From Arenicola marina (lineage: Eukaryota > Annelida > Polychaeta > Arenicolidae), in assembly GCA_964019135.1 (NCBI GenBank), contig OZ025253.1, positions 32,786,548 through 32,850,547 of the forward strand: a stretch of DNA of 64,000 bases. The letters are read 5' to 3'. The position numbers and the translations under genes were made by a program. This document shows, in pieces, positions 24,784 to 58,362 of the stretch; the first letter of the stretch is position 1; the number at the start of each line of letters is the position of its first letter. Below the pieces are notes generated by a model. It was not told where the DNA came from. It saw nothing but the letters and a program-made list of their open reading frames with translations, and searched no databases.

Positions 24784-24873
24784 CTAGTGGGGGAGGTGGC
24801 CGGGGGGAGGCCCACTAAGCCGCTCCCGCTCTAGCGCCAACTGTCGTTGGATGGCCTCGTGCTGTGCCGACAG
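24784..24873 (-). CDS. RERE: Atrophin/RERE exon 12 (last), C-terminus
   Basis: Minus-strand exon after the acceptor TTGTTACAG, phase 0, coding LSAQHEAIQRQLALERERLS, a short Pro/Gly/His end and a TAG stop (24784-24786). It matches the vertebrate RERE segment MHAQSAELQRLA(M/L)EQQ, a conserved helical part of the atrophin C-terminus. The preceding exon ends in phase 0 with AHQ, also as in RERE (SAAHQLQAMHAQ). It lies on the opposite strand from exons 1-10. Vertebrate RERE continues ~25 residues further; either this invertebrate protein is shorter or an alternative last exon is used (see 24443-24523). Confidence 0.85.
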   Translation of the reverse strand: MSAQHEAIQRQLALERERLSGPPPGHLPH

Positions 24874-25213
24874 CTGTAACAACGAAAACAAACAAAGACA
24901 CGTTACCTTGCCGATTATTTACGTGTTGTTGCCGTTGTTGTTGTTTACTCATTCCACTAAAAAAAGCATTGGAAGAAACCTCTTTGACGGAATAGGGCTG
25001 AGGCCATATTGGCCCTGTCCATGTTGATCCACAAGCTAGAAGGTGTTAGTATTACGTGAGCTATACCGATTCAGTGGTTCGCGTTAATATGGAGGAAAGA
25101 CGCGGTCGATTATCTCAGTGTAGGGTCAATGACGTGATACCATCATATCAGACTGCCCAAGTCGCCGCCTTCAGACGACCCCTAAGCCGGTTCCCCGTAT
25201 AGCGGTGACTTTA
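24874..25213 (-). other. Intron 11, non-repetitive part
   Basis: Intronic DNA between exon 12 and the 46-bp array. It includes the pyrimidine-rich acceptor of exon 12 on the minus strand. Nothing else recognised. Confidence 0.6.
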
Positions 25214-26287
25214 CTTGTATTATCAGGTTAACCTGGTTCCCCCACCAACGCGGCGACAGTCTGTATTATCAGGTTGACCTGGTTCCCCCACCAACGCGGC
25301 GACAGTCTGTATTATCAGGTTGACCTGGTTCCCCCACCAACGCGGCGACAGTCTGTATTATCAGGTTGACCTGGTTCCCCCACCAACGCAGCTACAGTCT
25401 GTATTATCAGGTTGACCTGGTTCCCCCACCAACGCAGCTACAGTCTGTATTATCAGGTTGACCTGGTTCCCCCACCAACGCGGCGACAGTCTGTATTATC
25501 AGGTTGACCTGGTTCCCCCACCAACGCAGCTACAGTCTGTATTATCAGGTTGACCTGGTTCCCCCACCAACGCGGCGACAGTCTGTATTATCAGGTTGAC
25601 CTGGTTCCCCCACCAACGCAGCTACAGTCTGTATTATCAGGTTGACCTGGTTCCCCCACCAACGCGGCGACAGTCTGTATTATCAGGTTGACCTGGTTCC
25701 CCCACCAACGCAGCTACAGTCTGTATTATCAGGTTGACCTGGTTCCCCCACCAACGCAGCTACAGTCTGTATTATCAGGTTATCCTGGTTCCCCACCTAC
25801 GCGCCGACAGTCTCTATATTATCCAGTTAAACTGGTTCTCAACATCTACGCGGCGACAGTCTCTATATTACCAAGTTAAACTGGTTCTCACTATCTACGC
25901 GACGACAGTCTCTATATTATCCAGTTAAACTGGTTCTCAACATCTACGCGGCGACAGTCTCTATATTATCAAGTTAAACTGGTTCTCACCATCTACGCGG
26001 CGACAGTCTCTATTATCAAGTTAAACTGGTTCTCACCATCTACGCGGCGACAGTCTCTATATTATCAAGTTAAACTGGTTCTTACCATCTACGCGGCGAC
26101 AGTTTCTATATTATCAAATTTAACTGGTTCCCCCGACTACATGGCGACAGTCTCTATACTGCCCGGTTTAGCTGGTTCTCCCGCATACACGGTGACAGTC
26201 TCTATATTACGAGTTTAGGCTGGTTCCCCCACCTACGCGGCAGCGACAGTCTCCATATTATGACGTTACGCTGGTTCCCCCGCCTAC
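25214..26287. repeat. Minisatellite, 46-bp unit, about 23 copies, filling intron 11
   Basis: Units ACAGTCTGTATTATCAGGTT + GACCTGGTTCCCCCACCAACG + CGGCG. The first ~12 units are almost identical with two alternating variants (GCGGCG, GCAGCT); later units drift to TCTCTATATTATC..AACTGGTTCTCACC. The array runs into the 5' splice site of exon 11: the donor (minus strand CAG|GTAGGCGGGGG) lies inside the last degenerate unit. Confidence 0.95.
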
Positions 26288-26460
26288 CTGATGGGCGAGG
26301 ATGGGGTCTGTGTTGTAGGGCGGCCGGCCCATCAGTTCCCGGTAAATGAGCTCCTGTTCGCGGGCGGCGGCCAGCAGGGGGTGGCCGGGGGGCAGGGCGT
26401 GCCCGGAGGACAAGTGGGGCCCCATCGACGTGCCGCCGCCGCCGGCCAGAGGGTCCGCGC
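26288..26460 (-). CDS. RERE: Atrophin/RERE exon 11
   Basis: Minus-strand exon of 173 nt between the acceptor TTGGCCTGACAG and the donor CAG|GTAGGC. It needs one base from the previous exon, so it enters in phase 1 and leaves in phase 0. It codes ADPLAGGGGTS, a Gly/His/Pro stretch, then REQELIYRELMGRPPYNTDP and ILAHQ. In vertebrate RERE the corresponding parts are SDPLARL and HEHEMLRHPVFGTPY..AAHQ. Exon 10 on the plus strand ends in phase 1 with RDRMERLG, so the joint reads ERLG-ADPLAG, matching AERMASLTSDPLARL across the junction. This is the key evidence that the plus- and minus-strand exons are one gene. Confidence 0.85.
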
Positions 26461-26850
26461 CTGTCAGGCCAAGCAAAGCCATTAATATACACTGAGTCGT
26501 TCTTTCGCGCTTAGCCCTGGTCTAAATGTTTCAATTATATCTAAAGTGCAACCACCATTTACTGAAGTATCTACATTTGTGGAAATAAATGAGCTGGAGT
26601 GGAGAAATCGCTCTTCTCAAAACTCTTCTCAAAGGACGATCATTTCCAAATATATATATATGTGACAGATAATTAATTTCTACTTCGTGGTACTTTGTTG
26701 ACATATTAATTACGGTTTATTAATGAAGTACTTCGACAACATTTTCAATATTTTCAAATGCAAAATTCAGCGGCTTTCCAATACATTTGCTTCGTTAGAT
26801 CGTTAAATCACACACACATACATAGACCTGTCATAACGCATGGTTTCCCA
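26461..26850. other. Intron 10 / flank, AT-rich
   Basis: AT-rich noncoding DNA upstream (in minus sense) of exon 11; a short TATATATATA run near 26650. No coding frame with similarity seen. Confidence 0.6.
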
Positions 26851-26979
26851 GCGGCCTATTTCACGGACATGCTTTAGCCGGCTACGGGGTTTAGTCGACT
26901 AAAATCGCCCATCATTTACATGGTAACTTTGGCCGACTAAGCCCCGTAGTCGGCTAACCTGCGTTCGTGAGGTCCGTCG
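26851..26979. mobile_element. Short MITE, second full copy
   Basis: Near-copy of 23879-24005 in the same orientation: GGCCTATTTCACGGACATGC, TTAGCCGGCTACGGGG, ATCGCCCATCATTTACATGG, then the inverted GCCCCGTAGTCGGCTAA and GTTCGTGAGGTCC. Confidence 0.8.
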
Positions 26980-27213
26980 CTGGTACCGTACACCAGTGGG
27001 GTTTTCAGCGTTATACGCGGGCAATGTACTCGCACCGTGGCGCACTGCCCCTATCTTTAACCTCTCTCTGTATGGTTACATAGGGATGTCCCCTCGACAC
27101 GCAAAGTCCACACGGGGCGGCGGGGTGGAGAAGGGCGGGGGCGCGAGGGGTAAACATATACCTAACTGAGGCAAACAAATAATTTGGCCGGTGACGTCCA
27201 GGCCGGTGACGTC

Positions 27214-27413
27214 NNNNNNNNNNNNNNNNNNNNNNNNNNNNNNNNNNNNNNNNNNNNNNNNNNNNNNNNNNNNNNNNNNNNNNNNNNNNNNNNNNNNNNN
27301 NNNNNNNNNNNNNNNNNNNNNNNNNNNNNNNNNNNNNNNNNNNNNNNNNNNNNNNNNNNNNNNNNNNNNNNNNNNNNNNNNNNNNNNNNNNNNNNNNNNN
27401 NNNNNNNNNNNNN
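27214..27413. other. Assembly gap, 200 N
   Basis: Exactly 200 N, a placeholder size. The left side ends in two copies of a CCAGGCCGGTGACGT-type word, perhaps the edge of an array; the right side starts inside an unrelated tandem array. The gap's two sides show no continuity. Confidence 1.
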
Positions 27414-27800
27414 AAACACTGCTACACCACGAGTAAGTTATTGTAAACACTGCTACACCACGAGTAGGTACAGTAAACACTGCTACACCACGAGTAGGTA
27501 CTGTAAACACTGCTACACCACGAGTAAGTTATTGTAAACACTGCTACACCACGAGTAGGTACTGTAAACACGGCTACACCACGAGTACGTTATTGTAAAC
27601 ACTGCTACACCACGAGTAGGTACTGTAAACACTGCTACACCACGAGTAAGTTATTGTAAACACTGCTACACCACGAGTAGGTACTGTAAACACTTACATC
27701 GCAAGTACTGTATACATTTATACTCTACTAATAAATATTTTGTAAACACTGATACACCACGAGTAAGTGATGTAAACACTGTAAAATCACGAGTAATTAT
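27414..27800. repeat. Minisatellite, ~30-bp unit, about 12 copies, cut by the gap
   Basis: Units of GTAAACACTGCTACACCACG + AGTAGGTACT or AGTAAGTTATT, degrading to the right. The array begins at the N gap, so its real length is unknown. Confidence 0.9.
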
Positions 27801-30800
27801 TGTGAACTACTGTTGCAGCATTGAATAAATACTGCGACCAGCTCGCAGTCCGTGAAGACTGCTAAACGTTACCACTATATCACTAATATAGTAGCCATGA
27901 CGACGAGACTGCTAGCACGTGTGTTGTCTTGTCCTTCTACATGTTCTGACCTTGACCTCCTTCTGTCTGTGTCTGCATCACATATCCGCCTCTATTTACT
28001 ATTCTAACCATCGACTTAATGGAGGATACCCACCGAGAGAGGGAGGCACTGGTAACTGTAGATATATATGTATATATATATATATCAAGTGTTGCAATCG
28101 TCGCGAGCGCTCCAAGCAGTTTCAGATCGATTCCCCGGTCCTGTTGAGGAAATGTCAGCGTTTCTTCATTAGCTGTTTTATAAGGTGTGCGGTGAGACGG
28201 CGTGATACCGTGAGGCAGCGTTGGACCGCAGGGGGTGGGAGGGCGGGGGGTGGCGGAGACTGGAGTGGGTAGGGGATGGGGCCGTATCTGATAGGGACCT
28301 ATCGGGGATGCGCCCGGGCCTGCCGGCGGGCCCCTGCCGGCGGCGCGGGCCGCTGGGTACCCCCACCACCCCCAGCGGGGGGGGCCGGCCCCGGTCGCCC
28401 CGGGGTTGTCTCCCGTACCCCCGCCGGTCTGATGGGCACCCCCTCCGGGTCGGTCTAATTTCAGGGGCCGGGGTCGTGCTGTGTGTGATATTACCAAGCC
28501 CCGGGGTGGGGGGTCCCCGCCCGTCGGGAGGGTGAGATGCCGCTAGCCGACCCCCCCCCCCCCCCCCGGCTCCCCCCACCTACCTTTGCTGTGCCCTGGC
28601 CTGATGCATGATCAGTCAGCTTCTGTGTTTGTGTGAGTAAAGGCGAGGGGTGATGGTGGGGTGTGGGCGGAAAGGATGGGTTGGCCTCCCCCCCCCCCTC
28701 CCCTCCCTGGTAGGCTGGGCTCGGCGGTCGGATGGGGGTAGGAGGGTAAGGTCGCCACCCCCGTCCGGAGCTGGCGCTGGGGGGGGGGGGGTGGAGGGGC
28801 TACGGGGAGGGTAATGGGAGTGCTAGGGGGAGGAGCGGAGGGGGGGGTGCGGACGTTTTGGTGTGTAGGTGATCAGATCAAAGAAGACTTGGACCCGGCG
28901 CAAGCAGGTACCAGGTGCGGCGTCCAGAAAGGCGCATACCAACTACCATGGTCTCCCCGTACCTCCGCCACCCCTCCCTCCCACCTCGCCCGCAGTCCCC
29001 GCTCCTGCCCGTCCATCCCCCGTCGTTCTGGCTTGGTATTTCGCGAACTCCTCCCCCCCCCCCCCCCCCTTGTGACCTGTACCCCCCGCTCGTTCCCTTG
29101 CCCTCCTGCACCCCGCTATCTGGCATCATAGGAACTTTAGAAGCCCGGTCGGCAGTGATCCGGCCGGCCCCTCCCCCCCCCTCCCCCCCAGATACACACG
29201 ACGCCCTGCCGCGCCTCCTCCCCCCCCTCACCCCATACACACACATCACCACCACCACCCCGGAGCCGCCTCGACTTGCGTCCTCTGTTACCTGCCTGGC
29301 GTTGCTTAGCGCGCCACCTCGCGGCAAAGGTCAGCGACGCGCGGCAGACATCAGATAAATTGCGTCATGCGATCTCCGGGGAGAGGGCGCTTTTGCCACA
29401 ATTTGTGGGCCTATTATCGCCGCCGAAACGAGTGCGATATCGGCTGTCTGACGGCTGGCGGCGGGCGGGCGGTGGGTGGGTCTCCCCTCCCTCCCCTTCC
29501 CCCCTCTCCCTCCTCCCCCCCTCTCCGCTCAGCAACCCCATGTCTCCACTGGGAGGAAGGGAGGGAGAAGCGGAGAAGGGGGATGGGAGGTGGCCGGAGG
29601 GTGTGGTGGAGGGGGTCGCTGGTGTTGTATGGAGCCAGCGCCATCATGGCTGTCGATCTTATTACAGTAACCAATCCCGTGCCGACCGTGCACGGAATAC
29701 CTCTCCGTTTCCGCGGCTATTTGTTTGGTATTACCTCTAGAGGGCGCGGTCTCCCCGTCAAGTTGTCTTACTATCAGCGATGTGCGGAGGGGGGACGGAA
29801 GGGTGGGTGGGCATTTGGAAGTCGACCGGACGGAATGGCTGCAACTGAAGAGAGCGAGACAGAAATGAAAGAAGAGTGAAAGAGAGAGAGGGAGGTGGGG
29901 GGGGGGTGACGAGAGCTGGCGGGGGGGGGGGGGTAGGGAGCTTGTTTGGGGGGGGGGATTGATTGGGGGAAGGCAGGTACACATCACTACCTGCCTTCTC
30001 TCAACCATCCTGAAACCTGCGGCACGCCTGGGGGATGCGAACCCCACACCCACCCACCCACTGATTGACATATTATGTATTCTCGGACATGGTTTAACGA
30101 TGTCTTCGTGACGACGCGGGGGTGGGGTGAGGATGGGTGCATGGGTTAGTTCCCCGGTCGGATGTCGCGTCTCCATGACGGAAAAGATAGGGGCGGTATC
30201 TAACGAGAAATGGAAACGGGAGTAAACGCCGCTGATGTAACATATGCGGGGATTGGATGACGTAACATATGTCGGTGCTGCTGGTCGCCTGTGTGTTTAC
30301 ACTGCGGACCGGAGCCATTAGGACGGCCACCGTCCGTATACATGGCGAATTGATGTAAGTAACGATCGTTATCTCGTGTTTTGTCAGAAGTGAAATTGAC
30401 ACCGACGACGGAAGGGACCAGGCGTGCCTAACACAAAAAAGTGGAAACTTTGCCTTCCTTGCCCCCCCCCTTCTCCACCCTCCACCCTCTACCCTCCACC
30501 CTCCATACCCCCCTCCCTCCTCTCCCTCTCCTACCACTCCCTATCCTACCACTTCCTCTCCTACCACCCCCCCATCCCCCATCCCACCTCCACCCCCACG
30601 CAACCAAAGCTACACCGATTGCTATTCATTCTCGTGAGTCATCGCGTTGCGATCACATCGCATCGTAGTCTTTGGTTTCCATGGTAACCGTCGTCGCGCG
30701 CACCCCCCGTTCGGTCGCCCCGGCGCCGACCGGATGTGACGTAGGCAGATCCGGACACGACCGCCGCAATGGACACGGGGTATGGGTGGCGCCCCCAGCG

Positions 30801-31068
30801 GAAGGAAATGGAACTTCCTCGGTCGCGGGACAGGTGGGAAAGTCTTCCCCACATAATCGATTGTTTTCTGGCCCGTGCGTTATGCCAATGTAGCTTAGTG
30901 GCCCTGTTGATAACCACGGCAGCTACATGGAATGCCATCTAGATGTTTCGCGCCGTCTGTGTACACCTGAAAGATACATTGGGTGAAGAAACCTCCCAGG
31001 CCATCGTTTGACATGGGGTTTAGTCTTAACAACTTGTTCCATATGTAGATGTCAAGGGTTCGATCCTA
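27801..31068. other. Noncoding, GC-rich, with CpG-dense patch at 28200-28560
   Basis: Strongly skewed DNA with long C and G runs (near 28550, 28690, 28780, 29050, 29170, 29930) and a (TA)n run at ~28068-28085. The 28200-28560 patch is rich in CpG and could be a promoter-type island, but I found no matching exon. A CTCF-core-like word CTCTAGAGGGCGCGG lies at ~29736. If the contig is in the right internal order, this is upstream of exon 1 and should be intron; no SANT, ELM2 or BAH exon was recognised. Confidence 0.5.
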
Positions 31069-31160
31069 GCTAGGGGGCTATAGCGCTCGCCTTGAGTGTT
31101 CTGGCCACCTCTGGGCCAAACGGCACGTGGATCAATGGTTCGCTGACCCCGTCCCGTAAA
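31069..31160 (+). mobile_element. Fragment of type A SINE
   Basis: Contains GGGGCTATAGCGCTCGCCTT, GTGTTCTGGCCACCT, ACGGCACGTGGATCAATGGT and TCGCTGACCCCGTCCCGT, in the order of the SINE at 41207. The family tail is missing and a tandem array follows directly. Confidence 0.6.
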
Positions 31161-31490
31161 GCGCTCTCTGGGATCTGAAGGTGGGATGGGGGGGGGGGGG
31201 GGGTGGGGGGAGGACAAAGTTCGGTTCTGGTGGTGGACTGACCCCGTCCCGTGCAGGTGTCCGGGGGGGATGGGGGGTGGGGGATGGGGACAAAGTTCGG
31301 TTCTGGTGGTGGACTGACCCCGTCCCGTGCAGGGGTCCGGGGGGGATGGGGGGTGGGGACAAAGTTCGGTTCTGGTGGTGGACTGACCCCGTCCTGTGCA
31401 GGGGTCCGGGGGGGGATGGGGGTGGGGGATGGGGACAAAGTTCGGTTCTGGTGGTGGACTGACCCCGTCCCCTGCAGGGGTCCGGGGGGG
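31161..31490. repeat. Minisatellite, ~60-70-bp unit, about 5 copies
   Basis: Units of GGTCCGGGGGGGATGGGG, GGACAAAGTTCGGTTCTGG and TGGTGGACTGACCCCGTCCC + GTGCAG. The first unit begins in the SINE's own TGACCCCGTCCCGT word, suggesting the array grew from the SINE end. Confidence 0.85.
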
Positions 31491-32780
31491 ATGAAGTGCA
31501 GGTGTATCGTTTTTGTCTTCTCTTTGGCGCGGCCTCATTAGACTCCGTCTCTCTCCGTTCGTTGACCTGTTCTAACCACATCCGCTGTTCTAAAGGCAGA
31601 GTTTAAGGGACTGACCGACCACCCGAGGAACCAATTATCAACATGGTCGTTCACTGCCAAACCGCCAACTTTCCTGTGCCCCTTTACCGCAATTGATGAC
31701 TGTGTATTCGCCTGAAAGGTATCATTATTGATGGTGAAGGAGACCGATATTTCCTTGCCATTTTTTTTTGGTCGGGGGGGGGGGGGAGGGGAGGGTGGGG
31801 GGTGATGTGCTGTGTGGTTCTGAATCAGGATGTGTGTACCCTGGTGCCCCCTTCCTGCGACGCATGTGTGCAGTCTGTCGAGTTTTGTTTATGCTGAGAG
31901 GGGTGACCAGGCAGCCAGCCTGGATACCTTGTATTGCATCTATCTATGCGGACTGTCTAAATTTCGTTTCAAGCTGGCTTGGGAGGGGTGGCTAGGGAGG
32001 GTAGTGGGTAGGGGGAGGAGTGGCAGCCTTGAAATAATGTGTTATGTGTATATAGTATGTCGAGTTTTGTTTCTCTTGAGCTGGCCAGGGAGGGGTTGCG
32101 GGTGTGGATGGGGTGGGTTGGGGGGGAGGGGGGGGGCACTGGCAGCTTTGAGATTCATCCCACATGGACTCGTTGTCCGGACTGCTCCAGTCGGTTCTGG
32201 AGAGTGTTTGATCCTGACACGGCTTTGATCCCGAATCTCGGAACCATTTGTCACGACCGCAATATGACGTTGAAAGTGCCGTAATTTGGCCTGCCACGCC
32301 CGGCGGGAAACGACTGGGTGATGACCGGTCGCGCCCTCTAGCGAATGCGGCCGGAACTAATAGGGCTTCATACAGACTGAGGGCTGGAAAACGGGGCTGG
32401 GTAGGGTGGAGAAGGTAGGGGCGGGGGTGGGGGGGGAGAGAGAAGGCGGGGTGAGTGCTGGGATACGGTTGAGATACAGGGGACGTTAACAAGGGTATTA
32501 GTGCTGTTAAATCTCGTGAAATCCCGTTTGTTATCTCGTGTTGGCTCGTGCCATGTTGTTTGTCAGACAAAGCCGGCGTTTTTCCCAACGATTTTAATCG
32601 GCTCCAAACTATCTGGGGCTACATGATAGCGCGTGGGGAGGGCGGGGGTTCTTGGGGTAGGGGGTGGGGTGGGGTGGGGTAGGGCAGGGGTAGCAATGTA
32701 GTTTGCCTTGTTCTTTCGTGTACAACCAACGTGTACCTTCCAATTGTGAGATCCGATCTTTCCGTCCCTGTATTCACCAC
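31491..32780. other. Noncoding stretch upstream of the 30-bp array
   Basis: G-rich runs and mixed DNA; a CTCF-core-like GCGCCCTCTAGCGAATG at about 32330. No coding similarity seen. Probably intronic to atrophin. Confidence 0.5.
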
Positions 32781-34980
32781 CTATCTCGCCACCGATCTTC
32801 CAATCTGTCTTCCAATTTATCTCCTAATCTATCGCCCCACCGCACATCTCGCCACCTGTCTCACCACCTCCTGTCTCACCACCTCCTGTCTCACCACCTC
32901 CTGTCTCACCACCTCCTGTCTCACCACCTCCTGTCTCACCACCTCCTGTCTCACCACCTCCTATCTTACCACCGCATATCTCGCCACCTGTCTCGCCACC
33001 GCCTATCTCGCAACCTATCTAGCAACCTATCTCGCCACACCCCATCTCGCCACCGCCTATCTCGCCACCTATCTCACCACCGCCTATCTAGCAACCTATC
33101 TCGCCACCTATATCACCACCGCCTGTCTCCCAACCAATCTCACCACCACCGCCTGTCTCCCAACCTATCTCACCACCACCGCCTATCTCCCAACCTATCT
33201 CACACCACCGCCTATCTAGCAACCTATCTCGCCACCTATATCACCACCGCCTGTCTCCCAATCTATCTCACCACCACCGCCTATCTCCCAATCTATCTCA
33301 CCACCACCGCCTATCTCCCAACCTATCTCACCACCACCGCCTATCTCCCAACCTATCTCACCACCACCGCGTGTCTCCCAACCTATCTCACCACCACCGC
33401 CTATCTCCCAACCTATCTCACCACCACCGCCTGTCTCCCAACCTATCTCACCACCACCGCCTATCTCCAATCTATCTCACCACCACCGCCTATCTCCCAA
33501 CCTATCTCACCACCACCGCCTGTCTCCCAATCTATCTCACCACCACCGCCTATCTCCCAACCTATCTCACCACCACCGCCTATCTAGCAACCTATCTCGC
33601 CACCTATATCACCACCGCCTGTCTCCAATCTATCTCACCACCACCGCCTATCTCCCAACCTATCTCACCACCACCGCCTATCTAGCAACCTATCTCGCCA
33701 CCTATATCACCACCGCCTGTCTCCCAACCGATCTCACCACCACCGCCTGTCTCCAACCTATCTCACCACCACCGCCTTTCTCCCAACCTATCTCACCACC
33801 ACCGCCTATCTAGCAACCTATCTCGCCACCTATATCACCACCGCCTGTCTCCCAACCGATCTCGCCACTATATCACCACCGCCTGTCTCCAATCTATCTC
33901 ACCACCACCGCCTATCTCCCAACCTATCTCACCACCACCGCCTATCTAGCAACCTATCTCGCCACCTATATCACCACCGCCTGTCTCCCAACCGATCTCA
34001 CCACCACCGCCTGTCTCCCAACCTATCTCACCACCACCGCCTTTCTCCCAACCTATCTCACAACTACCGCCTATCTAGCAACCTATGTCGCCACCTATAT
34101 CACCACCGCCTGTCTCCCAATCTATCTCACCACCACCGCCTATCTCCCAACCTATCTCAACACCACCGCCTATCTCCCAACCTATCTCACCACCACCGCC
34201 TATCTAGCAACCTATCTCGCCACCTATATCACCACCGCCTGTCTCCCAACCGATCTCACCACCACCGCCTGTCTCCCAACCTATCTCACCACCACCGCCT
34301 ATCTCCCAACCTATCTCACCACCACCGCCTATCTAGCAACCTATCTCGCCACCTATATCACCACCGCCTGTCTCCCAATCTATCTCACCACCACCGCCTA
34401 TCTCCCAATCTATCTCACCACCACCGCCTATCTCCAACCTATCTCACCACCACGCCTATCTCCCAACCTATCTCACCACCACCGCGTGTCTCCCAACCGA
34501 TATCACCACCACCGCCTGTCTCCCAACCTATCTCACCACCACCGCCTATCTCCCAATCTATCTCACCACCACCGCCTATCTCCCAACCTATCTCACCACC
34601 ACCGCCTATCTCCCAACCTATCTCACCACCACCGCCTATCTAGCAACCTATCTCGCCACCTATATCACCACCGCCTGTCTCCCAATCTATCTCACCACCA
34701 CCGCCTATCTCCCAACCTATCTCACCACCACCGCCTATCTAGCAACCTATCTCGCCACCTAATCACCACCGCCTGTCTCCCAACCGATCTCACCACCACC
34801 GCCTGTCTCCCAACCTATCTCACCACCACCGCCTTTCTCCCAACCTATCTCACCACAACCGCCTATCTAGCAAACCTATCTCGCCACCTATATCACCACC
34901 GCCTGTCTCCCAACCGATCTCACTCACCACCACCGCCTATCTCACCACCGCCGCCTGTCTCCCAATCTATCTCACCCACC
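32781..34980. repeat. Minisatellite, ~30-bp pyrimidine-rich unit, about 70 copies, before exon 1
   Basis: Units of CACCACCACCGCCTATCTCC + CAACCTATCT with variants (GCCTGTCTCC, ATCTAGCAAC, CGCCACCTATAT). The long Ser/His/Leu or Thr/Tyr reading frames here are by-products. The array stops about 25 bases before the exon 1 acceptor, and its last units merge into the acceptor's pyrimidine tract (CTACCTCCCCGTCCCACAG). Confidence 0.95.
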
Positions 34981-35004
34981 GCTGTCTACCTCCCCGTCCC
35001 ACAG

Positions 35005-35206
35005 AGTCGAAGGACTGGCACCATGCGGGCCGCGACAACGTGCTGCTGTGCACGGAGTGCCGACTCTTCTACAAGAAGTATGGCGACGACCGGCCGCTGG
35101 ACAGCCCCCGAGACCCGCCCCCGTTCATGTTCAAACCCGTCACCGACGACGACGAGGGCTCGCTGAGCGACAAGCACGCCCCAGCGGCGGACTCAGGAAC
35201 CAGTCG
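35005..35206 (+). CDS. RERE: Atrophin/RERE exon 1 in window: second half of GATA-type zinc finger
   Basis: Acceptor CGTCCCACAG, donor TCG|GTGAGT, 202 nt, entering with 2 nt of a split codon and leaving in phase 2. It codes [20 protein letters not shown], then [14 protein letters not shown] and [11 protein letters not shown], then [13 protein letters not shown]. Vertebrate RERE has SKDWHHGGRENILLCTDCR, KKYGELPPIEKP and PPPFMFKPV in this order. The second CxxC pair of the finger (CTEC) is here; the first should be in the preceding exon, which I did not find. The length and identity leave no doubt about the family. Confidence 0.95.
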
Positions 35207-40667: not shown

Positions 40668-40773
40668 CAAGAAGGCAGTCTCGAGTACGCCAGATTCTCT
40701 GGATAGCGACTCCAAAGACGGACGCAAGTCCCCCAGCGGCGTCAGCACTTCCAGCGTCAGCAGCGCCGACAGG
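40668..40773 (+). CDS. RERE: Atrophin/RERE exon 2
   Basis: Tandem acceptor TTTTTTACAGAG: only the second AG (40666-40667) keeps frame with exon 1, giving CG|C = Arg and the reading SR-KKAVSSTPDSLDSDS, KDGRKSPSGVSTSS, VSSADR, then donor AGG|GTAAGT. Vertebrate RERE has SGRKKQPASPDGR and GRNSPSAASTSS here, so the Arg-Lys-Lys joint supports this choice. Serine-rich, probably disordered. Using the first AG would add two bases and shift the frame. Confidence 0.85.
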
Positions 40774-44400: not shown

Positions 44401-45045
44401 TCACCCCTCATGATGTCCTGTCTGTGTCTCACCCCTGACGATGCCCTGTCGCTGCCTCACCCCTGATGATGCCCTGTCTCTGTCTCACCCCTGATGATGT
44501 CCTGTTTGTGTCTCACCCCTCATGATGTCCTGTCTGTGTCTCACCCCTGATGATGTCCTGTCTCACCCCTGATGATGTCCTGTCTGTGTCTCACCCCTGA
44601 TGATGTCCTGTCTCACCCCTGATGATGTCCAGTCTCTGTCTCACCCCTGATGATGCCCTGTCTGTGTCTCACCCCTGATGATGTCCTGTCTCTGTCTCAC
44701 CCCTGATGATGCCCTGTCTGTGTCTCACCCCTCATGTTGTTCTGCCTCACCCCTGATGATGTCCTGCCTCACCCCTGATGATGTCCTGCCTCACCCCTGA
44801 TGATGCCCTGTCTCTGTCTCACCCCTGATGATGCCCTGTCTCTGTCTCACCCCTGATGATGCCCTGTCTCTGTCTCACCCCTGATGATGCCCTGTCTGTG
44901 TCTCACCCCTCATGTTGTCCTGTCTCACCCCTGATGATGTCCTGTCTGTGTCTCACCCCTGATGATGTCCTGTCTGTGTCTCACCCCTGATGATGCCCTG
45001 CCTCACCCCTCATGTTGTCCTGCCTCACCCCTGATGATGTCCTGT
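41465..45045. repeat. Minisatellite, 28-bp unit, about 125 copies, in intron 2
   Basis: Units CACCCCTGATGATGTCCTGT + CTGTGTCT, with variants GCCCTG, CTCTGCCT, CATGATG and 14-bp half units. This ~3.6-kb block fills nearly all of intron 2 and runs to within ~12 bases of the exon 3 acceptor, whose CTGTCTCTGTTGCAG is a modified unit. Higher-order blocks recur (for instance around 42880-43100 and 43470-43700), a sign of segment duplication inside the array. Confidence 0.98.
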
Positions 45046-45056: not shown

Positions 45057-45131
45057 GGCGAGCGAGGCTCGAAGCACTCCGTTCAAGGGGACGAATCTGA
45101 GGACGGCGACAGCAAGGCTGCTAAGGACCAG
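45057..45131 (+). CDS. RERE: Atrophin/RERE exon 3
   Basis: 75 nt, phase 0 to 0, between CTGTTGCAG and CAG|GTTAGT. Codes GERGSKHSVQGDESEDGDSK and AAKDQ. Hydrophilic and acidic; low sequence conservation, but the position, phase and splice sites fit. In RERE this region (SDTEEADRTSSKKTK) is likewise charged and disordered. Confidence 0.75.
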
Positions 45132-45524: not shown

Positions 45525-45659
45525 GAACGTTCTGAGAGTCCTTCTGGTGAGTCGTTCTCCGACAGTAGCAGTATCTACGGCAACGAGGACGGAGAGGAGG
45601 AAGAGGAGGAGGAGGAGGGTGGGGATGGGGACGACGACGGAGGTGAAGAAACCAACCAG
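45525..45659 (+). CDS. RERE: Atrophin/RERE exon 4, acidic
   Basis: 135 nt, phase 0 to 0, between ATATATTTCAG and CAG|GTCAGT. Codes ERSESPSGESFSDSSSIYGN then an acidic run (EDGEEEEEEEEGGDGDDDGG). Corresponds to the RERE stretch [20 protein letters not shown]. Probably disordered. Confidence 0.85.
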
Positions 45660-45699: not shown

Positions 45700-47090
45700 T
45701 GTCACCCCAGTCCCGTCACCCCCTAGTCTCTTGTCGCCCCCCCCCACTCAGTCTCTTGTCACCCCCAGTCCCAAGTCACCTCCAGTCCCTTGTCACCCCC
45801 AGTCCCAAGTCACCCCCAGTCCCTTGTCACCCCCAGTCCCAAGTCACCCCCAGTCCCTTGTCACCCCCAGTCCCAAGTCACCCCCAGTCCCTTGTCACCC
45901 CCAGTCCCAAGTCACCCCCAGTCCTCTGTCACTCCCAGTCCCAAGTCACCCCCAGTCCCTTGTCACCCCCAGTCCCAAGTCACCCCCAGTCCCTTGTCAA
46001 CCCCAGTCCCAAGTCACCCCCAGTCCTCTGTCACTCCCAGTCCCAAGTCACCCCCAGTCCCTTGTCACCCCCAGTCCCAAGTCACCCCCAGTCCCTTGTC
46101 ACCCCCAGTCCCAAGTCACCCCCAGTCCCTTGTCACCCCCAGTCCCAAGTCACCCCCAGTCCCTTGTCACCCCCAGTCCCAAGTCACCCCCAGTCCCTTG
46201 TCACCCCCAGTCCCAAGTCACCCCCAGTCCCTTGTCACTCCCAGTCCCAAGTCACCCCCAGTCCCTTGTCACCCCCAGTCCCTAGTCACCCCCAGTCCCA
46301 AGTCACCCCCAGTCCCTTGTCACCCCCAGTCCCAAGTCACCCCCAGTCCTCTGTCACTCCCAGTCCCAAGTCACCCCCAGTCCCTTGTCACCCCCAGTCC
46401 CTTGTCACCCCCAGTCCCAAGTCACCCCCAGTCCTCTGTCACTCCCAGTCCCAAGTCACCCCCAGTCCCAAGTCACCCCCAGTCCCTTGTCACCCCCAGT
46501 CCTTGTCACCCCCAGTCCCAAGTCACCCCCAGTCCCTTGTCACCCCCAGTCCCAAGTCACCCCCAGTCCCTTGTCACCCCCAGTCCCAAGTCACCCCCAG
46601 TCCTCTGTCACTCCCAGTCCCAAGTCACCCCCAGTCCCTTGTCACCCCCAGTCCCTTGTCACCCCCAGTCCCTTGTCACCCCCAGTCCCAAGTCACCCCC
46701 AGTCCTCTGTCACTCCCAGTCCCAAGTCACCCCCAGTCCCAAGTCACCCCCAGTCCCTTGTCACCCCCAGTCCCTTGTCACCCCCAGTCCCAAGTCACCC
46801 CCAGTCCCTTGTCATCCCCAGTCCCAAGTCACCCCCAGTCCCTTGTCACCCCCAGTCCCAAGTCACCCCCAGTCCTCTGTCACTCCCAGTCCCAAGTCAC
46901 CCCCAGTCCCTTGTCACCCCCAGTCCCAAGTCACCCCCAGTCCCTTGTCACCCCCAGTCCTCTGTCACTCCCAGTCCCAAGTCACCCCCAGTCCCTTGTC
47001 ACCCCCAGTCCCAAGTCACCCCCAGTCCCTTGTCACCCCCAGTCCCAAGTCACCCCCAGTCTCTTGTTATCCACAGTCCTTTATCGCCTA
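45700..47090. repeat. Minisatellite, 17-bp unit, about 80 copies, in intron 4
   Basis: Units CCCCCAGTCCCAAGTCA and CCCCCAGTCCCTTGTCA alternate, with a CCTCTGTCACTC variant. Since 17 is not a multiple of three, the same 17-residue peptide (SPPVPSHPQSLVTPSPK) is read in all three plus frames, giving three overlapping long open frames. It starts ~40 bases after the exon 4 donor. No evidence that it is translated. Confidence 0.97.
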
Positions 47091-47179
47091 ATCATCCTTG
47101 TCACCTTTTTTTTATACGCATTACATTTTTATATTATACATGTATAACTTATATGTGTATCTATTTTTTTTTCGAGGTG

Positions 47180-47431: not shown

Positions 47432-47976
47432 GAGGACTTCCAAGACGACGTGAACTCGATCGCGTCCTCCGCAGCGCCTAGCCCCAGCTCGGCTGGGGGT
47501 GAGGCCGTCTACCGCCACGGGGTGATCAAACCCCCGACCCTGCCATCCGGGGTCGAGGTTCAGACGGAGGATTCCACCCTCAAATCCGGAGACGAGGAGG
47601 ATTCGAGTTCGGACTCTGGCGAGTCTGGCTCCGGATCCGACAGCGACGAGGACGGGGACTCGAGCGGGGAGGAGGAGGAGGAGGACGGGGCAGGGGGGGC
47701 AGCGGGAGGGGAGGCGCGACCCCCGCCGCCGCCGCCGCTGCCGTCAGCAGGGCTGTCGTTACTGGCGGCCCGGGAGGATCCAGAACGCGGCGTGATCCGG
47801 AGTATCCAGGAGGCCGTCGCCGGGAACTTCGGCGGCGGCGGAGGCGGGAAGTCCGAGGCTGAGAGCTTCAGCGGAAGCAGCAGCACGTCGACCTCCCAGC
47901 ACAGCTCGCCCACCCCCCCGGGGCCCCTGGGAGGGCCGCCGCTCCCTAGCCTACCCCCACCACCCCCGCAGCAGCC

Positions 47977-48009
<33 letters not shown>

Positions 48010-49239
48010 GCCGCCGCCGCAGCCACAGCAGCCGCTGACGCCGCAGCCGCAGCCGCTACCGCTCGCGGCGAGCCTCGCCCTGCTGTCGCCGGACCTCAGG
48101 GGCCCCACCTTAGGGCCGCTGCCCCCGGCGGGGACCTCGGCGCAGGGCGTTCCGCAGGTGCAGGAGGGTCCCGGTCTGCTGCCACCCTCGCTGGTCGGGG
48201 TGCTGCCGCAGCCGCCCCCGCCCCCGCCCCCGCCCCCGCCGCCATCGTCGTCGTCGTCGTCGTCCGGGGTACCCTTGCCGCCGCACCCGCCGCCGCCTCT
48301 CCAGCAGGGACCCCCGCCCGTCGGGCCCCTGGGGCTGCCGGCCACGGGGCCTCTGGGAGGCGCCCCCCTCTGCGGCAACGTCAGCAGCAGCAGCAGCAGC
48401 TTCTCCCCGCCGCCGCCGCCGCCGCCGCCGCCGCAGCAGCAGCAGCAGCAGCCGCCGCCGCCGCCGCCGCCACCGCCCGCTCGGTCCCTCTCCCCAATGC
48501 AGCAGCAGCAGGAGGAAGTCGACAGCAAGGAGAAGCTCGGGCTGATACCGCCGGCGCTGTCCGCAGGCCTGCCCCCCCACGGGGTGCTCCCGCCGCCCCA
48601 CCACCTGGGCCTCCTCCACCACCACCACCACCACTCCCCACACCACCCCCACCCAGGGGTGCTGCCCCATCACCCCCAGGGCCTGATGCCCCCGCACCAC
48701 TACGTCGGCGGGCCGCCCCCGCTCGTCTCCGCCATGAGCCAAGGCGGGGTCATGATTCCCCCGACGCCCGGCTCGCAGCACGCCCTGCCCCCTGGCGGCG
48801 TGGAGACTATCAAAATCGAACCTCTGGACGCCATGGCCGTCTCGTCGCGCCACCTGGAGGGCGGCGGCGGCGGCAATGGGTCGTCGCAACGTGCGCACTC
48901 TCCGCGGAGGTCGAGGTCACGGTCGCCCGGCGGCCCCCCACAACAGCAACAACCACACCAACAATCTCAACAGCCGAGTCACTACAGTCAAGGTCACCTG
49001 GATCAGCGACCGCGGTCGTCGCCGCCGCTGCCGCTGCCGCCAAGGTCAAGGTCTCCTTACCGATCTCAGTCTCCGCACCAAATGGACTCTCGGCCGCGAC
49101 TCTCGTCGAGGTCTCGTTCTCGGTCGCGTTCTCGTTCTCCCGTCGGTCGGGATTCGGACTCTGAGCCGGATGAGCGGAGAAGTCCCAGTCCGGAACCCAG
49201 GATAGCCGACGAGGAGTGTCACCGCAGCAAATCCGCCAT
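47432..49239 (+). CDS. RERE: Atrophin/RERE exon 5, large Pro/Gln-rich exon
   Basis: 1808 nt, phase 0 to 2, between TTTTCTCTCCAG and CAT|GTAAGT. Starts EDFQDDVNSIASSAAPSPSS (compare vertebrate IPSPQDNESDSDSSAQQQ), then acidic Ser/Asp/Glu (to ~residue 105), then long Pro, Gln, Gly, Ser and His tracts, including a pure (CAG)10 at 47978-48007 and six His near residue ~395. Near its end is ETIKIEPLD, a sumoylation-type IKxE site, as in RERE VQIKEEALDD. An SR-like segment (RSRSRSPGG, SRSRSRSRSRSPVGRDS) and RRSPSPEP (compare RSPSPEP) close it. This single exon replaces the large central exon of vertebrate RERE. The antisense frames open over it are composition effects. Confidence 0.95.
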
Positions 49240-49794: not shown

Positions 49795-50011
49795 ATTCCT
49801 GAAGCACTGGTGGCGAGGTCGTAACTCGTGCGCCCGCTGTGACCTCGAATTCCACCCCAAGTCCGACTCTCGTCTGGCCAAGAAAAGAGAGGACCAACTT
49901 CGGCGTCTTTCACTAGGGGGCGCTTCTAATCACGTGGCCGGCGGCGGCAGGGACGAGAAGAAGGACGAGAAAGGGCGAGAAGACTCAGACAAGGCCGCCT
50001 CGCACAACAAC
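49795..50011 (+). CDS. RERE: Atrophin/RERE exon 6, start of atrophin C-terminal domain
   Basis: 217 nt, taking one base to complete ATA (Ile), leaving in phase 0; acceptor CATTCGATTCAG, donor AAC|GTGAGT. Codes FLKHWWRGRNSCARCDLEFH, PKSDSRLAKKREDQLRRLS and a basic/acidic tail. Vertebrate RERE has [20 protein letters not shown] and [20 protein letters not shown]. Strongly conserved. A perfect CTCF-core word (CACTAGGGGGCGC, ~49912-49924) overlaps the codons for LGGA. Confidence 0.95.
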
Positions 50012-53000
50012 GTGAGTTGCTACGAACGTTTGGGTCGTTGATCTTTGGTGTGGTGTGTGAACGGTGAGATTGTTTGCAATTTGCGACATGGCATTTGTTT
50101 TGTAATAAATGATTATGTCGTAATGTGCCGAAGGTATGGTTAGCCTAGTATTAGCATCTGCCGGGAATTGTCTTTGTGTTGAGGACCCCCCCCCCCCCCC
50201 CTCACACTCACCCAGTCGAGCGGTTAAGGTAAGATTGATGGTCTGTTCGCTCGGGCTGCACCCCTGCTATCAATTCCAATGCTTTCATCGTTATATAACT
50301 GTCGTTGTAACCTGACCCCCCCCCCCCCCCATAAACCCTTCCCCCCGTCCCCTAGCCCCCAACCCCATCCCCTCCGCGTAGTATGCGGTCCCAGATTTCC
50401 CGACGGTGACAGTTGCAGAAGAACCCGTTATGGTCTCGCTGGGAAGACGTGGTTTGCCGAGACCGTGGGTGTTTGTGAGTTTGTGAGACGCGATGGGACG
50501 TGTCTTTGTCTGGACACGGACAGCCGTAATCCGGGTTCAGGCGGGACGGGGCGCCCAGTGTGTCGCTCAGGCAGACAGCCTAGGGGGTGGGGTCGGGGTC
50601 TGTGGTGGGGAGGGGGGGTAGGAGAGGAGAGGGGGGTGGAGGGGTCAGACAAACAATGGGTCATTGCGCCACTGAGCCGGTTACCACAGGGAATGGGCCG
50701 AATTGGTTTAGCATGTATGTTGCCAACCGATAGAGAGCCATGCACAAAATACATGTCGAATACAACCTCACCACACCCCCCCAGCCCCCTACCCTATATC
50801 CCCCGCTCTCCTCCTCACTTTTTGTACACACATCCTCACATCCGCATGTTCCTCTTCTCTCCATCATTCTCTCCTCCTACCCTTGCCCTTTTCCTACCAT
50901 CCGACACCCCCCCCCCCCTCCTCCTCCTCAACCCCTCCTCTTGTCCCCCCCCCCTTCCCTCCTCTTCCCACCTTCCCTTACCACTTCTGCTCGTGCAATC
51001 CTTCCCCTCCTCTTCCTACACTCCCCTCCTCCTCCTCCTCCTCCTCCTCCTCCTCCCCACCCCTCTTCCCACCCTCCCCCACCTCTCTTTCCACCCTCCT
51101 CCCTCTCCTCCGCCACCCCTCCCCCCGTGCCCCTCCTCCCGCTCCCCTCCTTCCGTTCGCCTCCTTCCACCCCCCCCCCCCCACTGCCCCCCGCACGTCT
51201 CTCTCCGTGCCGCCGCTTGATTACATTTACCACCGCTAGGTGGCGCGGGTGAATTGTATCCGCGCCTGATCCGTCGCGACGTATGCGCCACCTCGCGCCG
51301 GTGGGCGATAAAAGGCAATTGAGCGTTGTTAGCCATGCAAACTGCGGGTCGCCCGACTTGTAGCGGCCCGGCGGTGGACAAAAACCTGACCCCTAGCGGC
51401 CGGCGGGCGGACCGCGCGCCGGGGGCGTCCGACCGGCTCTCTCGCTACAATTATTACGCCTGTTCACCTCCGCGGACGCCGTGATTCGTCCGCTGTCGTA
51501 AAGTAGTGCCTGGGTGTGGAGATAATGTTTTCTATCGGGGTTGGTGAGCGAGAACGGAGGCTGGGTGGGTTGGGATGTGGGGGTTGGGGATGCTGTCGAT
51601 GATTGGTGCGGGTAGGGGTGTGGGTGGCTGGGTGGAGAGGAAGGGGGGTAAATGCTGGTAAGGGTCTGTAAGTTGAGCCAAGCTGTGCGTTAAACTTGGC
51701 AGCTAAGATGTTGGAGGGGCTGTGATTACCCGCCTTTACAAACCCCTCCCCTCTCGCCCTCCCCTCTCCTCCCCTCCGCCTCTGACCATCGCTGTTGGTA
51801 ACTAACCTTACCACTATCACCACCCTCACCATACCCACCCTCACCACCACCCGCCCTATCCTTACCACCCTCACCAACCTCACCATCTTCACCACGACCC
51901 TCATCGTGTACACAATGACAACCAACGCTACCCTCGCCACCACCCCCACAACCCTCACCCCCACCATCCTCACCCTCACCCTCACCCCCACCACCTTCAC
52001 CCTCACAACCACCACCTTCACCCTCACAACCACCACCCGCGCCAACCTCACAACCACCACCCGCGCCACCCTCGCCCCTCACCCCTCGCCCTATCTCTCC
52101 GGTGGCACTGGCCGTCTGGTGTGACGCGATTGCTCTCTTGTGACTACTCCCCGCCACGCCCCATTGAGGGCTGTCTAATAGGCGGAAACCTTATTAGGCG
52201 GTGTCGCATTGATCTGAGCAGGCCCTCTGAAGTTTATGGGAGGAGGGTGGGGGGAGAGGAGGGCGGAGGGAGGGGGCCGCTGGGCCGGGCCGGGCCGAGC
52301 CGGGCCGGGCCGGGCCTGGCCTGGAATCGAGGTAGGTCAGCGCAGTTGGAGGAGGAGGGGAAAGGGGCGGCCTCTTACGGTGAAGGTGTTCGGGTAGTTT
52401 GTGTTAAGGTGTGGGTGGGATGAACAGGTGGGGGGGGGATGTTCGTGGAGGGGTAGGGAGACCCTCTTCCTCCCAGAGAAAAGGGACTCTTTAGCGAGCG
52501 GAAGGCTAAGACGCCGTCGCGACTACGTAACCTGCTGGGTTCCTGTCACTAATCTCGCTGGTTCCCTGCCACTACACTGGCGGGAGCCCCTGCCTAGTAG
52601 CTCAGCGGGTAAACAGCCGGAATTACAGATCATAACGGGTCCGGGCTTCGCACTGTGACACCTGCATCTGCGGCATGTGTCATCCAATCCACACACATTT
52701 CATTCAAACCGGGATGTATCTAGGTCTAAGTTAGCCTTGCCCTGCACAAAAATCTCCTAAAATATCCTACGTTTGATTTCATCTTGGAAGAGAAACGTCC
52801 CTGCAAAAATATCGACGTTTTGAAGACGTTATGATGTTGCTAAGAATTTACCATCGCTACCGAGGGCCGGTCGCTATGCATAGATGGTTGCTATGCACCA
52901 ATCGTTGCTATGCACGGGTGGTTGCTATGCGCGACCATAGCCGGACTGCAGTTTGTAGCTGCCCCTCGATGTGTTATTTATTAACTTGTAATATGTATAA

Positions 53001-53750: not shown

Positions 53751-53776
53751 TTGACCTGGATTCCTTGTCCCCGCAG

Positions 53777-53972
53777 AAGAAGCCCGAGACGCCGCCTGAC
53801 AACCGGACGGCGGACGCGCAGATCACGAGCTCCCTGATGAACGCCCAGCACGTGCCGCCCTACGCCGTGGACCGCCACACCCCCCGGGGGCCCGGCCCCT
53901 ACGCCCTGGGACCCCACGACCCCACGCCCGCCCTCCGCACGCTGTCCGAGTACGCCCGACCGCACACTCTGG
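53777..53972 (+). CDS. RERE: Atrophin/RERE exon 7
   Basis: 196 nt, phase 0 to 1; acceptor CTTGTCCCCGCAG, donor CTGG|GTAAGT. Codes KKPETPPDNRTADAQITSSL, MNAQHVPPYAVDRHTPRG and ends PALRTLSEYARPHTL. The last part is identical to vertebrate RERE over PALRTLSEYARPH, one of the best-conserved atrophin motifs. Confidence 0.95.
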
Positions 53973-54381: not shown

Positions 54382-54493
54382 GAGGTCAAGAGGGGGCGCC
54401 GCGATCGCTGCCCTACAGTCTTGCGTCACTTCCTCCGCACGCCATGGATTACTACCGCATGCCGGGAATGTTTCCACCCGGCTCGCGAGAACG
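54382..54493 (+). CDS. RERE: Atrophin/RERE exon 8
   Basis: 112 nt, taking 2 nt to finish Gly and leaving in phase 2; acceptor TCGTTTCCGCAG, donor AACG|GTGAGC. Codes GQEGAPRSLPYSLASLPPHA and MDYYRMPGMFPPGSRE. RERE has AYHMPGLYNVDP at this place. The last bases of the exon and its donor are repeated ~127 bases downstream. Confidence 0.8.
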
Positions 54494-55507: not shown

Positions 55508-55635
55508 GTTGGAGCTGGAGCTGGAGCGAGACAAGCGGGAACGGGATGACCGGGAACGCGCTCTGCGCGAGAGGGAAATCCGAGAGATGGAAATGAGGGA
55601 GAAAATGAAGCAGGAAATGGATCTCAAGCCCCCTG
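55508..55635 (+). CDS. RERE: Atrophin/RERE exon 9, Arg/Glu-rich helix
   Basis: 128 nt, taking 1 nt to finish Arg and leaving in phase 1; acceptor ATGTGCCGCAG, donor CCTG|GTGAGT. Codes [40 protein letters not shown] and PP. Matches the arginine-glutamate repeat of RERE ([26 protein letters not shown]), a long charged alpha-helix that gives the family its name. Confidence 0.92.
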
Positions 55636-56069
55636 GTGAGTGATCGCGGAATCTTATCGGTGAATGTTCGTGTATTTATCACGTTGCGAATCAAGATGGG
55701 AGCGGTTCCGGGGGCCCATTTAGATCACAGGTGTTTTTGCGTGATATTTTGCGTGGCAATATGAACGTTGTTGTATTATATGATTTAAACCGCCCTTGCG
55801 TTGAAATGCGTAGCGGTTTGCGGGCCACGGGAGGCCGGCCGGCTGGCCGCCTGGGTGCCCTAGAACCGCCAGCGCCGGCTAAGGCGTTTCTATAAATGGC
55901 CAAAAGGCAGGATTATCGTACACCGCTTAATGGTGCAACATATACCGTATCATATATTCTAGGAAAAGGGAATTTGCATAGCAAAGGCCTGCTTTCCAAT
56001 AACGTAATAAACATATGTTTAAGCTGATCTAGCACGAAGGACGTTCTATATAATTAATGCGACTTTTGT
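55636..56069. other. Intron 9, unique part
   Basis: Noncoding DNA, CpG-rich near 55800-55880. Nothing recognised. Confidence 0.5.
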
Positions 56070-56200
56070 CTCCTTGTGACACTATTTTGTCTACTTGTGA
56101 CAAAATTGTGTCTCCTTGTGACAAAATTGTGTCTCCTTGTGACAAAATTGTGTCTCATTGTGACATTATTTCGTCTCCCCGTGACACTATTTTGTCTCCT
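56070..56200. repeat. 21-bp minisatellite just before exon 10, about 6 copies
   Basis: Units TGTCTCCTTGTGACAAAAT + TG; the last unit, TTTTGTCTCCTCGCGACAG, forms the pyrimidine tract and the acceptor AG of exon 10. Confidence 0.9.
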
Positions 56201-56208
56201 CGCGACAG

Positions 56209-56409
56209 GCTTCGACCGCCTACCCCCCGGGGCCAACCCGCTGGACCCCCACTGGGTGGAGATGCAGCGACGCTACAGCGTCCAAATGGCCCAGGGCGGG
56301 GGCCCCAACCCTCCCCCCGGGGCGCCGGGGCACCTGCCCGGCGTCTACCCCCCGGCCAGCCTGGCCAGCGACTTGATGCAGCGGGAACGCGACAGAATGG
56401 AACGCCTCG
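56209..56409 (+). CDS. RERE: Atrophin/RERE exon 10, last plus-strand exon
   Basis: 201 nt, taking 2 nt (GC) to finish Gly and leaving in phase 1; acceptor CTCGCGACAG, donor CTCG|GTGGGT. Codes FDRLPPGANPLDPHWVEMQR, RYSVQMAQGGGPNPPPGAPG and SLASDLMQRERDRMERLG. RERE has [20 protein letters not shown] at the start and AAERIHAERMASL at the end. A second possible donor (GTAATC) three bases further would change the phase. The next homologous sequence (SDPLARL in RERE) is not downstream on this strand; it is at 26460 on the minus strand. Confidence 0.9.
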
Positions 56410-57374
56410 GTGGGTAATCCGTCCTTCCGTCTGTCCATCCGTCAGGCCAATTCGTCCTATCTATCTGTCTGTCTGTCTGTCTGTCTGTGTGTCTGTCGGG
56501 GGCATCGGTCATTGTGAAACGCATCTCAAGTCTGAACCCTTTCCCCGGTATCTGGTTGGCGTTGTTTTGGGGGCGTAACGTGCCTTTTTTTCGCCAACGT
56601 GGGTGGGGTGGGGTGGGAGGGAGGGGAGGACCCTTCCCAGTCTTTGTGGGGTCATAATTGCTGACCACTAATTCACTTTGGTATGAAGGAAGGTGTAAAG
56701 AGGGGGGAGGGGGACTAGGGACTATGTAATTTTACGAATGACCGGTTACCCTAAAGTTCACCCCCACTCCGCCCCTGTCCTTTCACCCCCACTTCCCCCC
56801 CATTTCGTCACCGCCCGCCCCTCCCCATCGCCCAATTATATGTTTCTCTGTACTCTCTTACTGGTGCTCCTGACTAGTATGCATATTAAGCTCTATATAT
56901 ATGTTGATGGCTTCGCATTGGTGATAACTTATTCTCTGTCAATTCACTCAATAATGACCTTTGACCTATTACGCCTCTGAGGTCGTGAGGCGTCTCATTT
57001 TGACTGATTATTATGGAGTTGAACTTTGGTTACTGTGCTTTGGTGAGTCTGAATCAGAAACTGCGCAATAGACAACGACGTATCTCATCTGGACATGTAT
57101 CCACTGTGGCTGAGGTCCCTGGTTGGAGAATGCAGTCGTTTAGGGCTTAAATGCTCCCTCTAGCGGAGGAGAATGTACGGTACCCATGGTTACGAGTATG
57201 GCCACGTGGACCTCGTGCATGTTATATCTTTCTTGTTTCAGCTGCGCTATCCTTCACTGGATTGGTTCTGTTTTAATGCGCTCTTGTCACATGTTGTTGA
57301 AATAATGTGATATTTGTTGGTGCTTGCCTTGTGTGAATTAAGTGAAAACTATGATAGTGCCCTGGATCGAACTC
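56410..57374. other. Intron 10, plus-strand side, unique DNA
   Basis: Noncoding, with a (TGTC)n run at ~56465-56490 and C-rich stretches. No further atrophin exon was found up to the gap. Confidence 0.6.
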
Positions 57375-58270
57375 TTCGGGTACAGCGCCCTCTATGGAAT
57401 GATACAGGCTATGTAATACAGCACCCTCTATGGGAAGGTACAAGAACTACTGCAGCGCCCTCTATGGGAAAGTACAGGAACTACAACGCCCTCTATGGAG
57501 AGATACAGAAACTGCTGCAGCGGCCTCTATGGAGTGACACAGTTACGATATCGGCGCTCTCTATGGAAAGACAAAAACTACTACAGCGCCCTCCAAGACA
57601 CGATACAGGAACTACTACAGCGCCCTGTAAGGAACGATACAGGAAGTTCTACAATGCCCCCTATGGAGTAATACAGGTACCATTACGGGCCCTCTCTAAG
57701 ACTGGAACGCCCTCTAGCGCATGATACCTGATCCACTGGAGCGCCTTCTAGCGCCAGGTGTGATATACTGGAGCGCTCTCTAGCGCCAGGTGTGATATAC
57801 GGGAGCGCCCTCTAGCGCCAGATGTGATCCACAGTGGCGTCATCTAGCGCCATGTGTGATATACTAGAGCGCCCTCTAGCGCCAGTTGTGATATACTGCA
57901 ACGCCCTCCAGCGCCAGGTGTGATATACTGGAGCGCCCTCCAGGGCCAGGTGTGATATACTGGAGCGCCCTCCAGGGCCAGGTGTGATATACTGCAACGC
58001 CCTCCAGGGCCAGGTGTGATATACTGCAACGCCCTCCAGGGCCAGGTGTGATATACTGGAGCGCCCTCCAGGGCCAGGTGTGATATACTGGAGCGCCCTC
58101 CAGGGCCAGGTGTGATATACTGGAGCGCCCTCCAGGGCCAGGTGTGATATACTGGAGCGCTCTCTAGCGCACTCTGATCCAGTGGAGCGCGCCCTAACGC
58201 CTGATACCTGCTTTACTGAAGCGCCCTATAGCGCCAAATATGTGATCCACTGGGGCGCCCTCTAGCGTAT
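57375..58270. repeat. ~32-bp repeat array built on GCGCCCTCTAGCGCC
   Basis: About 25 units. In the left half they read GCGCCCTCTATGG + A + gatacagg/actac words; in the right half GCGCCCTCCAGGGCC or GCGCCCTCTAGCGCC + AGGTGTGATATACTGGA. The invariant GCGCCCTC(T/C)A is, on the minus strand, T(G/A)GAGGGCGC, the core of a CTCF-type motif, in the same orientation in every unit. Confidence 0.9.
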
Positions 58271-58362
58271 TAAGCCTAAATACGCAACCACGAAGTGTCA
58301 CGTGGGCACTCCTATAATAAGACCCCAATCAAGCACACTTTATCGCACTGAACTAATCAAGA

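Follow-up and report, generated by a model that had tools for sequence, protein, structure and literature searches.

An atrophin gene on both strands of an Arenicola marina scaffold points to a contig placed the wrong way round

Introduction

How can the exons of a single gene come to lie on both strands of an assembled sequence? The question is raised by a 64,000-nucleotide stretch of the annelid Arenicola marina (assembly GCA_964019135.1, OZ025253.1; C6:32786548-32850547), hereafter the window. An earlier note had read twelve exons here, ten on the plus strand and two on the minus strand, as one atrophin protein, and had proposed that the contig lying between two runs of N is inverted. The gene belongs to the RERE/atrophin family (human RERE and ATN1, Drosophila Grunge). 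As judged from the sequence, the middle contig (27414-58362) most probably stands back to front, with a rough probability of 0.94, as the product of a scaffolding error and not of new biology. The gene itself is an ordinary animal gene.

Results

The window was examined together with 100 kb on either side, 262 kb in all, and the genome-wide searches covered 867 Mb in 762 contigs. Exactly two runs of N are present within the window, each of 200 N, and they bound 27414-58362 as the earlier note had said. Only one more gap occurs in the 262 kb, at window coordinates -8906 to -8707, leaving four gap-free stretches, which we call contigs: an outer left one, the left contig (-8706 to 27213), the middle contig (27414-58362), and the right contig (58563 to beyond 162,999).

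27214-27413, no strand, scaffold gap of 200 N, left join of the middle contig
58363-58562, no strand, scaffold gap of 200 N, right join of the middle contig
27414-58362, probable true orientation minus, middle contig of 30,949 bp, apparently placed the wrong way round

The strongest evidence for the flip, which goes beyond what the earlier note had considered, is the strand change on the right-hand side. A human RERE sequence served as the query for tblastn and for the alignments. Across the 262 kb, tblastn gave 22 rows at E <= 10, among which 7 had E < 0.01, namely three BAH matches in the right contig, all on its minus strand, and four plus-strand matches in the middle contig, one to GATA and three to atrophin exons.

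81515-81414, minus strand, BAH tblastn match (exon 81496-81426), right contig, outside the window
79099-78995, minus strand, BAH tblastn match (exon 79099-78994), right contig, outside the window
64648-64550, minus strand, BAH tblastn match (exon 64647-64551), right contig, just outside the window
35001-35180, plus strand, GATA tblastn match, middle contig
49793, 53924 and 55536, plus strand, atrophin tblastn matches, middle contig

Once the middle contig is flipped, all of these matches (7/7 with E < 0.01, of the 22 rows) stand in RERE order on one strand, and this second strand change, from BAH on the minus strand to GATA on the plus strand, also coincides with an N gap. The genome-wide best match for the GATA query was the same 35005-35206 exon (E 1.8e-20, plus strand), and the best matches for the BAH query were two of the three BAH exons (minus strand, E 1.4e-4 and 0.015), the third being absent from the query. 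The lengths and flanks of these three exons permit an in-phase join, and the joined product gave 90.5 bits in an alignment with human RERE that contains a 42-residue gap. The match to Pfam BAH (PF01426) was partial and fell below the cut-off (23.8 against 30.8 bits). A Pfam BAH search of the genome gave six places, none on C6, and the split BAH exons of the atrophin gene were probably too short for it.

On the left-hand side, the ten plus-strand exons of the middle contig and the two minus-strand exons of the left contig are all present, as in the earlier note, which had not given all of their ends.

35005-35206, plus strand, exon 1 of the earlier note, in fact internal; second part of the GATA finger
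40668-40773, plus strand, exon 2, from splice sites and frame
45057-45131, plus strand, exon 3, from splice sites and frame
45525-45659, plus strand, exon 4, from splice sites and frame
47432-49239, plus strand, exon 5, rich in Pro, Gln and Ser
49795-50011, plus strand, exon 6, within the conserved Atrophin-1 region
53777-53972, plus strand, exon 7, TPALRTLSEYARPH
54382-54493, plus strand, exon 8, from splice sites, frame and the Pfam scan
55508-55635, plus strand, exon 9, Arg-Glu repeats
56209-56409, plus strand, exon 10, with a stop directly after ERLGG if read unspliced
26288-26460, minus strand, exon 11, left contig
24784-24873, minus strand, exon 12, ending in a TAG stop, left contig

These exons have AG acceptors in 12/12 cases and GT donors in 11/11, and together they form one open frame of 1,146 amino acids with a single terminal stop. 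Both sides of the junction between exons 10 and 11 are in phase 1, and both sides of that between exons 11 and 12 in phase 0, just as the earlier note had claimed. Exon 11 is located on the expected strand 753 bp from the gap, so that intron 10 would measure 753 + 1953 = 2706 bp plus the gap after the flip, matching the earlier figure of about 2.7 kb. The search for a poly-A signal was uninformative, the first AATAAA occurring only 2,684 nt beyond the stop.

To score candidate exons, a scan was run with codon usage trained on 12 exons, leaving out exons 5, 11 and 12, and the phase of exon 10 was not supplied. Its top candidate between 16.5 and 27.2 kb of the left contig, minus strand, was 26288-26460, whose ends and frame are those of exon 11, with a score of 25.9 versus 4.7 for the next; the training exons themselves score 2.1-36.0. 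The rest of the middle contig past exon 10, read in its present direction, scored 2.8 at best, and the plus strand of the right contig up to 75 kb reached a maximum of 12.0 in a low-complexity stretch. The plus strand of the left stretch gave 14.1 and 11.8, besides 15.9 for the reverse of exon 11. Exon 11 is single copy in the genome.

The identity of the gene is given by the end of exon 5 through exon 10, which matches Pfam Atrophin-1 (PF03154) at 136.1 bits (cut-off 29.9, E 1.9e-39), the one place found for this domain in the genome. The earlier note had taken 35005-35206 as exon 1, which did not hold, since this exon begins inside the GATA finger: it matches positions 9-34 of the 36 in PF00320 (25.8 bits, just under the cut-off of 26.8). 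It is therefore an internal exon and the gene continues upstream, with the N-terminal exons outside the window. The first part of the finger would sit in an exon not found.

An overlap at their ends ties the orientation of the left contig to that of its outer neighbour. The first 6.4 kb of the left contig repeats the final 6.4 kb of this neighbour on the same strand (6,366 aligned positions, 99.59% identity). This duplication, at -15263 to -8907 and -8706 to -2351, lies across the next gap, on C6 outside the window. It is most simply an unmerged overlap of contig ends, and the assembly probably has a false duplication there. The right contig, gap-free for more than 104 kb, has no overlap anchoring its orientation. 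Its first 250 bp (58563-58812) recurs about 1.35 kb inward at 59912-60164 with 98% identity, so the right contig begins within a duplication.

The middle contig differs from its neighbours in its content of tandem repeats, which is 41.2% as against 13.5% in the outer left, 14.0% in the left and 10.0% in the right contig. Minisatellites crowd the atrophin introns, including a 28-mer in 129 copies at 41465-45000, a 34-mer at 45749-47061 and a 60-mer at 33114-34888. A search for alternate-haplotype copies of the four join flanks, in which for two flanks 40 of 2,197 and 40 of 3,424 initial candidates were scored, yielded no second full-length copy, the other matches being dispersed or tandem repeats.

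Apart from the atrophin gene, the left part of the window holds direct repeats at 7274-11157 and 19687-23577, 97.2% identical, within 7274-23577. They flank minus-strand gag-like and pol-like frames (10936-16482; reverse transcriptase (RVT), RNase H and integrase). From these features, 7274-23577 looks like a long terminal repeat (LTR) retroelement of the Ty3/Gypsy type, with unusually long terminal repeats (3.9 kb). In its gag-like frame (15019-16482, minus strand) an RNA-recognition motif (Pfam RRM_1, residues 22-89) precedes a PNMA-like capsid (PNMA, 222-339), followed by a weak CCHC zinc finger match (440-467) below the cut-off. A 493-aa open frame with a Ser/Asp-rich end at 2933-4414 on the plus strand has no Pfam match at E 0.001. 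Elsewhere in the genome, C5:14218646-14220512 carries a BAH match (E 1.8e-5), with weak ELM2- and SANT-like matches (E 0.18-0.26) nearby on one strand, and may be an MTA gene.

Discussion

On this evidence, one RERE-type atrophin gene would run along the minus strand over three contigs of a gapped scaffold: the right contig holds the BAH exons, the middle contig everything from the GATA finger to exon 10, and the left contig exons 11 and 12. The middle contig alone disagrees with the other two, its exons from GATA to exon 10 lying on the plus strand while the BAH exons and exons 11-12 are on the minus strand. Both strand changes fall at N gaps, and reversing the middle contig alone brings the seven matches and both end exons into RERE order on the minus strand. 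The earlier proposal that flipping one contig restores a single minus-strand gene is thus supported, also from the BAH side. The scaffolder would have set the 31-kb middle contig in its correct place but in reversed orientation, and its small size together with 41% tandem repeats may have made that orientation hard to call. Orienting short contigs from Hi-C is known to be difficult. The sequence itself shows the strand and order of the exons, their splice sites and phases, and the overlap tying the left contig to its outer neighbour; from this gene anatomy we infer the flip, and likewise that it is the assembly, rather than the animal, that carries the reversal.

Several observations weigh against this reading, and they concern the joins, the middle of the gene and its C-terminal end. 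At both joins the 5-kb contig ends gave no match longer than 59 bp in either the present or the flipped order, and therefore the joins themselves favour neither orientation. Neither the 262 kb nor the genome yielded the ELM2 and SANT exons, whose expected place is between the right and middle contigs, while other parts of the same genome queries did find the GATA and BAH exons. A Pfam ELM2 profile search of the genome gave no match, but its controls were also silent and it was not used. The ELM2 and SANT exons are probably inside the gap 58363-58562, in which case that gap is far longer than 200 bases. The assembled atrophin gene is incomplete.

The agreement in phase is also partly a product of the choice of splice sites. 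All 11/11 junctions can be read in frame, but the exon ends were set in the present follow-up, several of them adjusted to keep the frame after the initial boundary choices had broken it. Given that the splice sites were partly chosen for frame, the earlier statement that all eleven junctions are in phase holds as a reading and is weaker evidence than it sounds. The exon scan is crude as well: scores of 10-14 turn up where there is probably no exon (14.1 on the plus strand of the left stretch; 12.0 on the plus and 10.4 on the minus strand in the right contig), and a true BAH exon scores 6.1, only fourth on its strand.

At the C-terminal end, exons 11-12 alone matched no Pfam family at E 10 and are absent from the tblastn rows (E <= 10) that human RERE gave in the 262 kb, and joining them to the protein brought no gain in the Atrophin-1 match (133.3 versus 136.1 bits). 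Against a profile of the human RERE and ATN1 C-termini they scored 7.6 bits, which is not significant; this score was reached by 34 and 31 of 5,000 shuffles (about 0.65%), and at least ten open frames of the region beat it. The top three of the higher-scoring frames (33588-34640, 51806-52420 and 33814-35163; 14.6-26.0 bits) were set aside as mostly tandem repeat. A blastp E of 3e-7 for exons 11-12 was not relied on, since the target had 1,213 letters and the composition correction was off. The earlier claim that RERE similarity continues past the strand change is accordingly only weakly supported, and what carries the left-hand case is the splice sites, the coding score, the phase and the position.

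Such weak homology to the vertebrate C-termini, together with the gap that separates exon 10 from exon 11, would fit a reading in which the right and middle contigs do stand in opposite orientation, but exons 11-12 do not belong to the atrophin gene, the true C-terminal exons lying in the gap or elsewhere. We consider this improbable, given that the scan recovered exon 11 with a strong coding score and the same ends and frame, that it is single copy, and that it has the expected strand and lies so close to the gap. One blastp alignment (composition correction off), moreover, carried the joined protein on to near the RERE C-terminus (746-1145 against 15-461 of a 478-residue target). Even if exons 11-12 were not atrophin, the contig flip would stand on the right-hand evidence.

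If the animal itself carried an inversion of about 31 kb, fixed or heterozygous, with contigs broken at both breakpoints by chance, the layout would also be the one that the sequence as given shows, and the middle contig is rich in tandem repeats. Tandem repeats can favour rearrangement as well as contig breaks. If such an inversion were true, perhaps in one haplotype, the atrophin protein would be split, or truncated after ERLGG, with breakpoints in repeat-rich introns. Its breakpoints, however, would be confined to 26461-35004 and 56410-64550 (8.5 and 8.1 kb), each of which contains an N gap. With one other gap in the 262 kb, the double coincidence has a chance of about 0.1% by rough arithmetic from few gaps, or more if gaps cluster in repeats. 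The inversion would also break the sole atrophin place found in the genome, and we regard it as very improbable.

Finally, two separate genes or fragments, or trans-splicing between opposite-strand transcripts, would fit exons on both strands, and DNA alone forbids nothing here, but the parts on the three contigs are complementary and non-overlapping (BAH; GATA and Atrophin-1; the end) and the strand changes only at gaps, which makes this hardly credible.

A middle contig placed back to front resembles the misoriented short contigs of Hi-C scaffolds (PMC7672694, PMC9848053), in that a short contig is reversed between its neighbours. It differs in that the error here is deduced from gene anatomy and not from contacts or a reference. 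The authors of HiC-Hiker give an orientation error of 4.3% for 3D-DNA with human and worm short-read contigs (PMC7672694), and the YaHS paper reports inversions, that is misorientated contigs, for all three tools compared (PMC9848053). Gaps of 200 N are present in at least one published assembly (PMC12134992) and identify no tool.

With respect to the family, the gene shares with the RERE/atrophin proteins the BAH-like exons, part of a GATA finger, the Atrophin-1 region and the Arg-Glu repeats, all in one genomic place. It differs in that ELM2 and SANT were not found in the present assembly and that its C-terminus is short and weakly similar. Knowledge of atrophins is unchanged by the finding. 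If the flip is right, a conserved developmental co-regulator gene has probably been split or cut short by automatic annotation, and a spurious inversion could be scored in comparative work. A gene whose exons switch strand exactly at scaffold gaps would then serve as a cheap detector of such errors.

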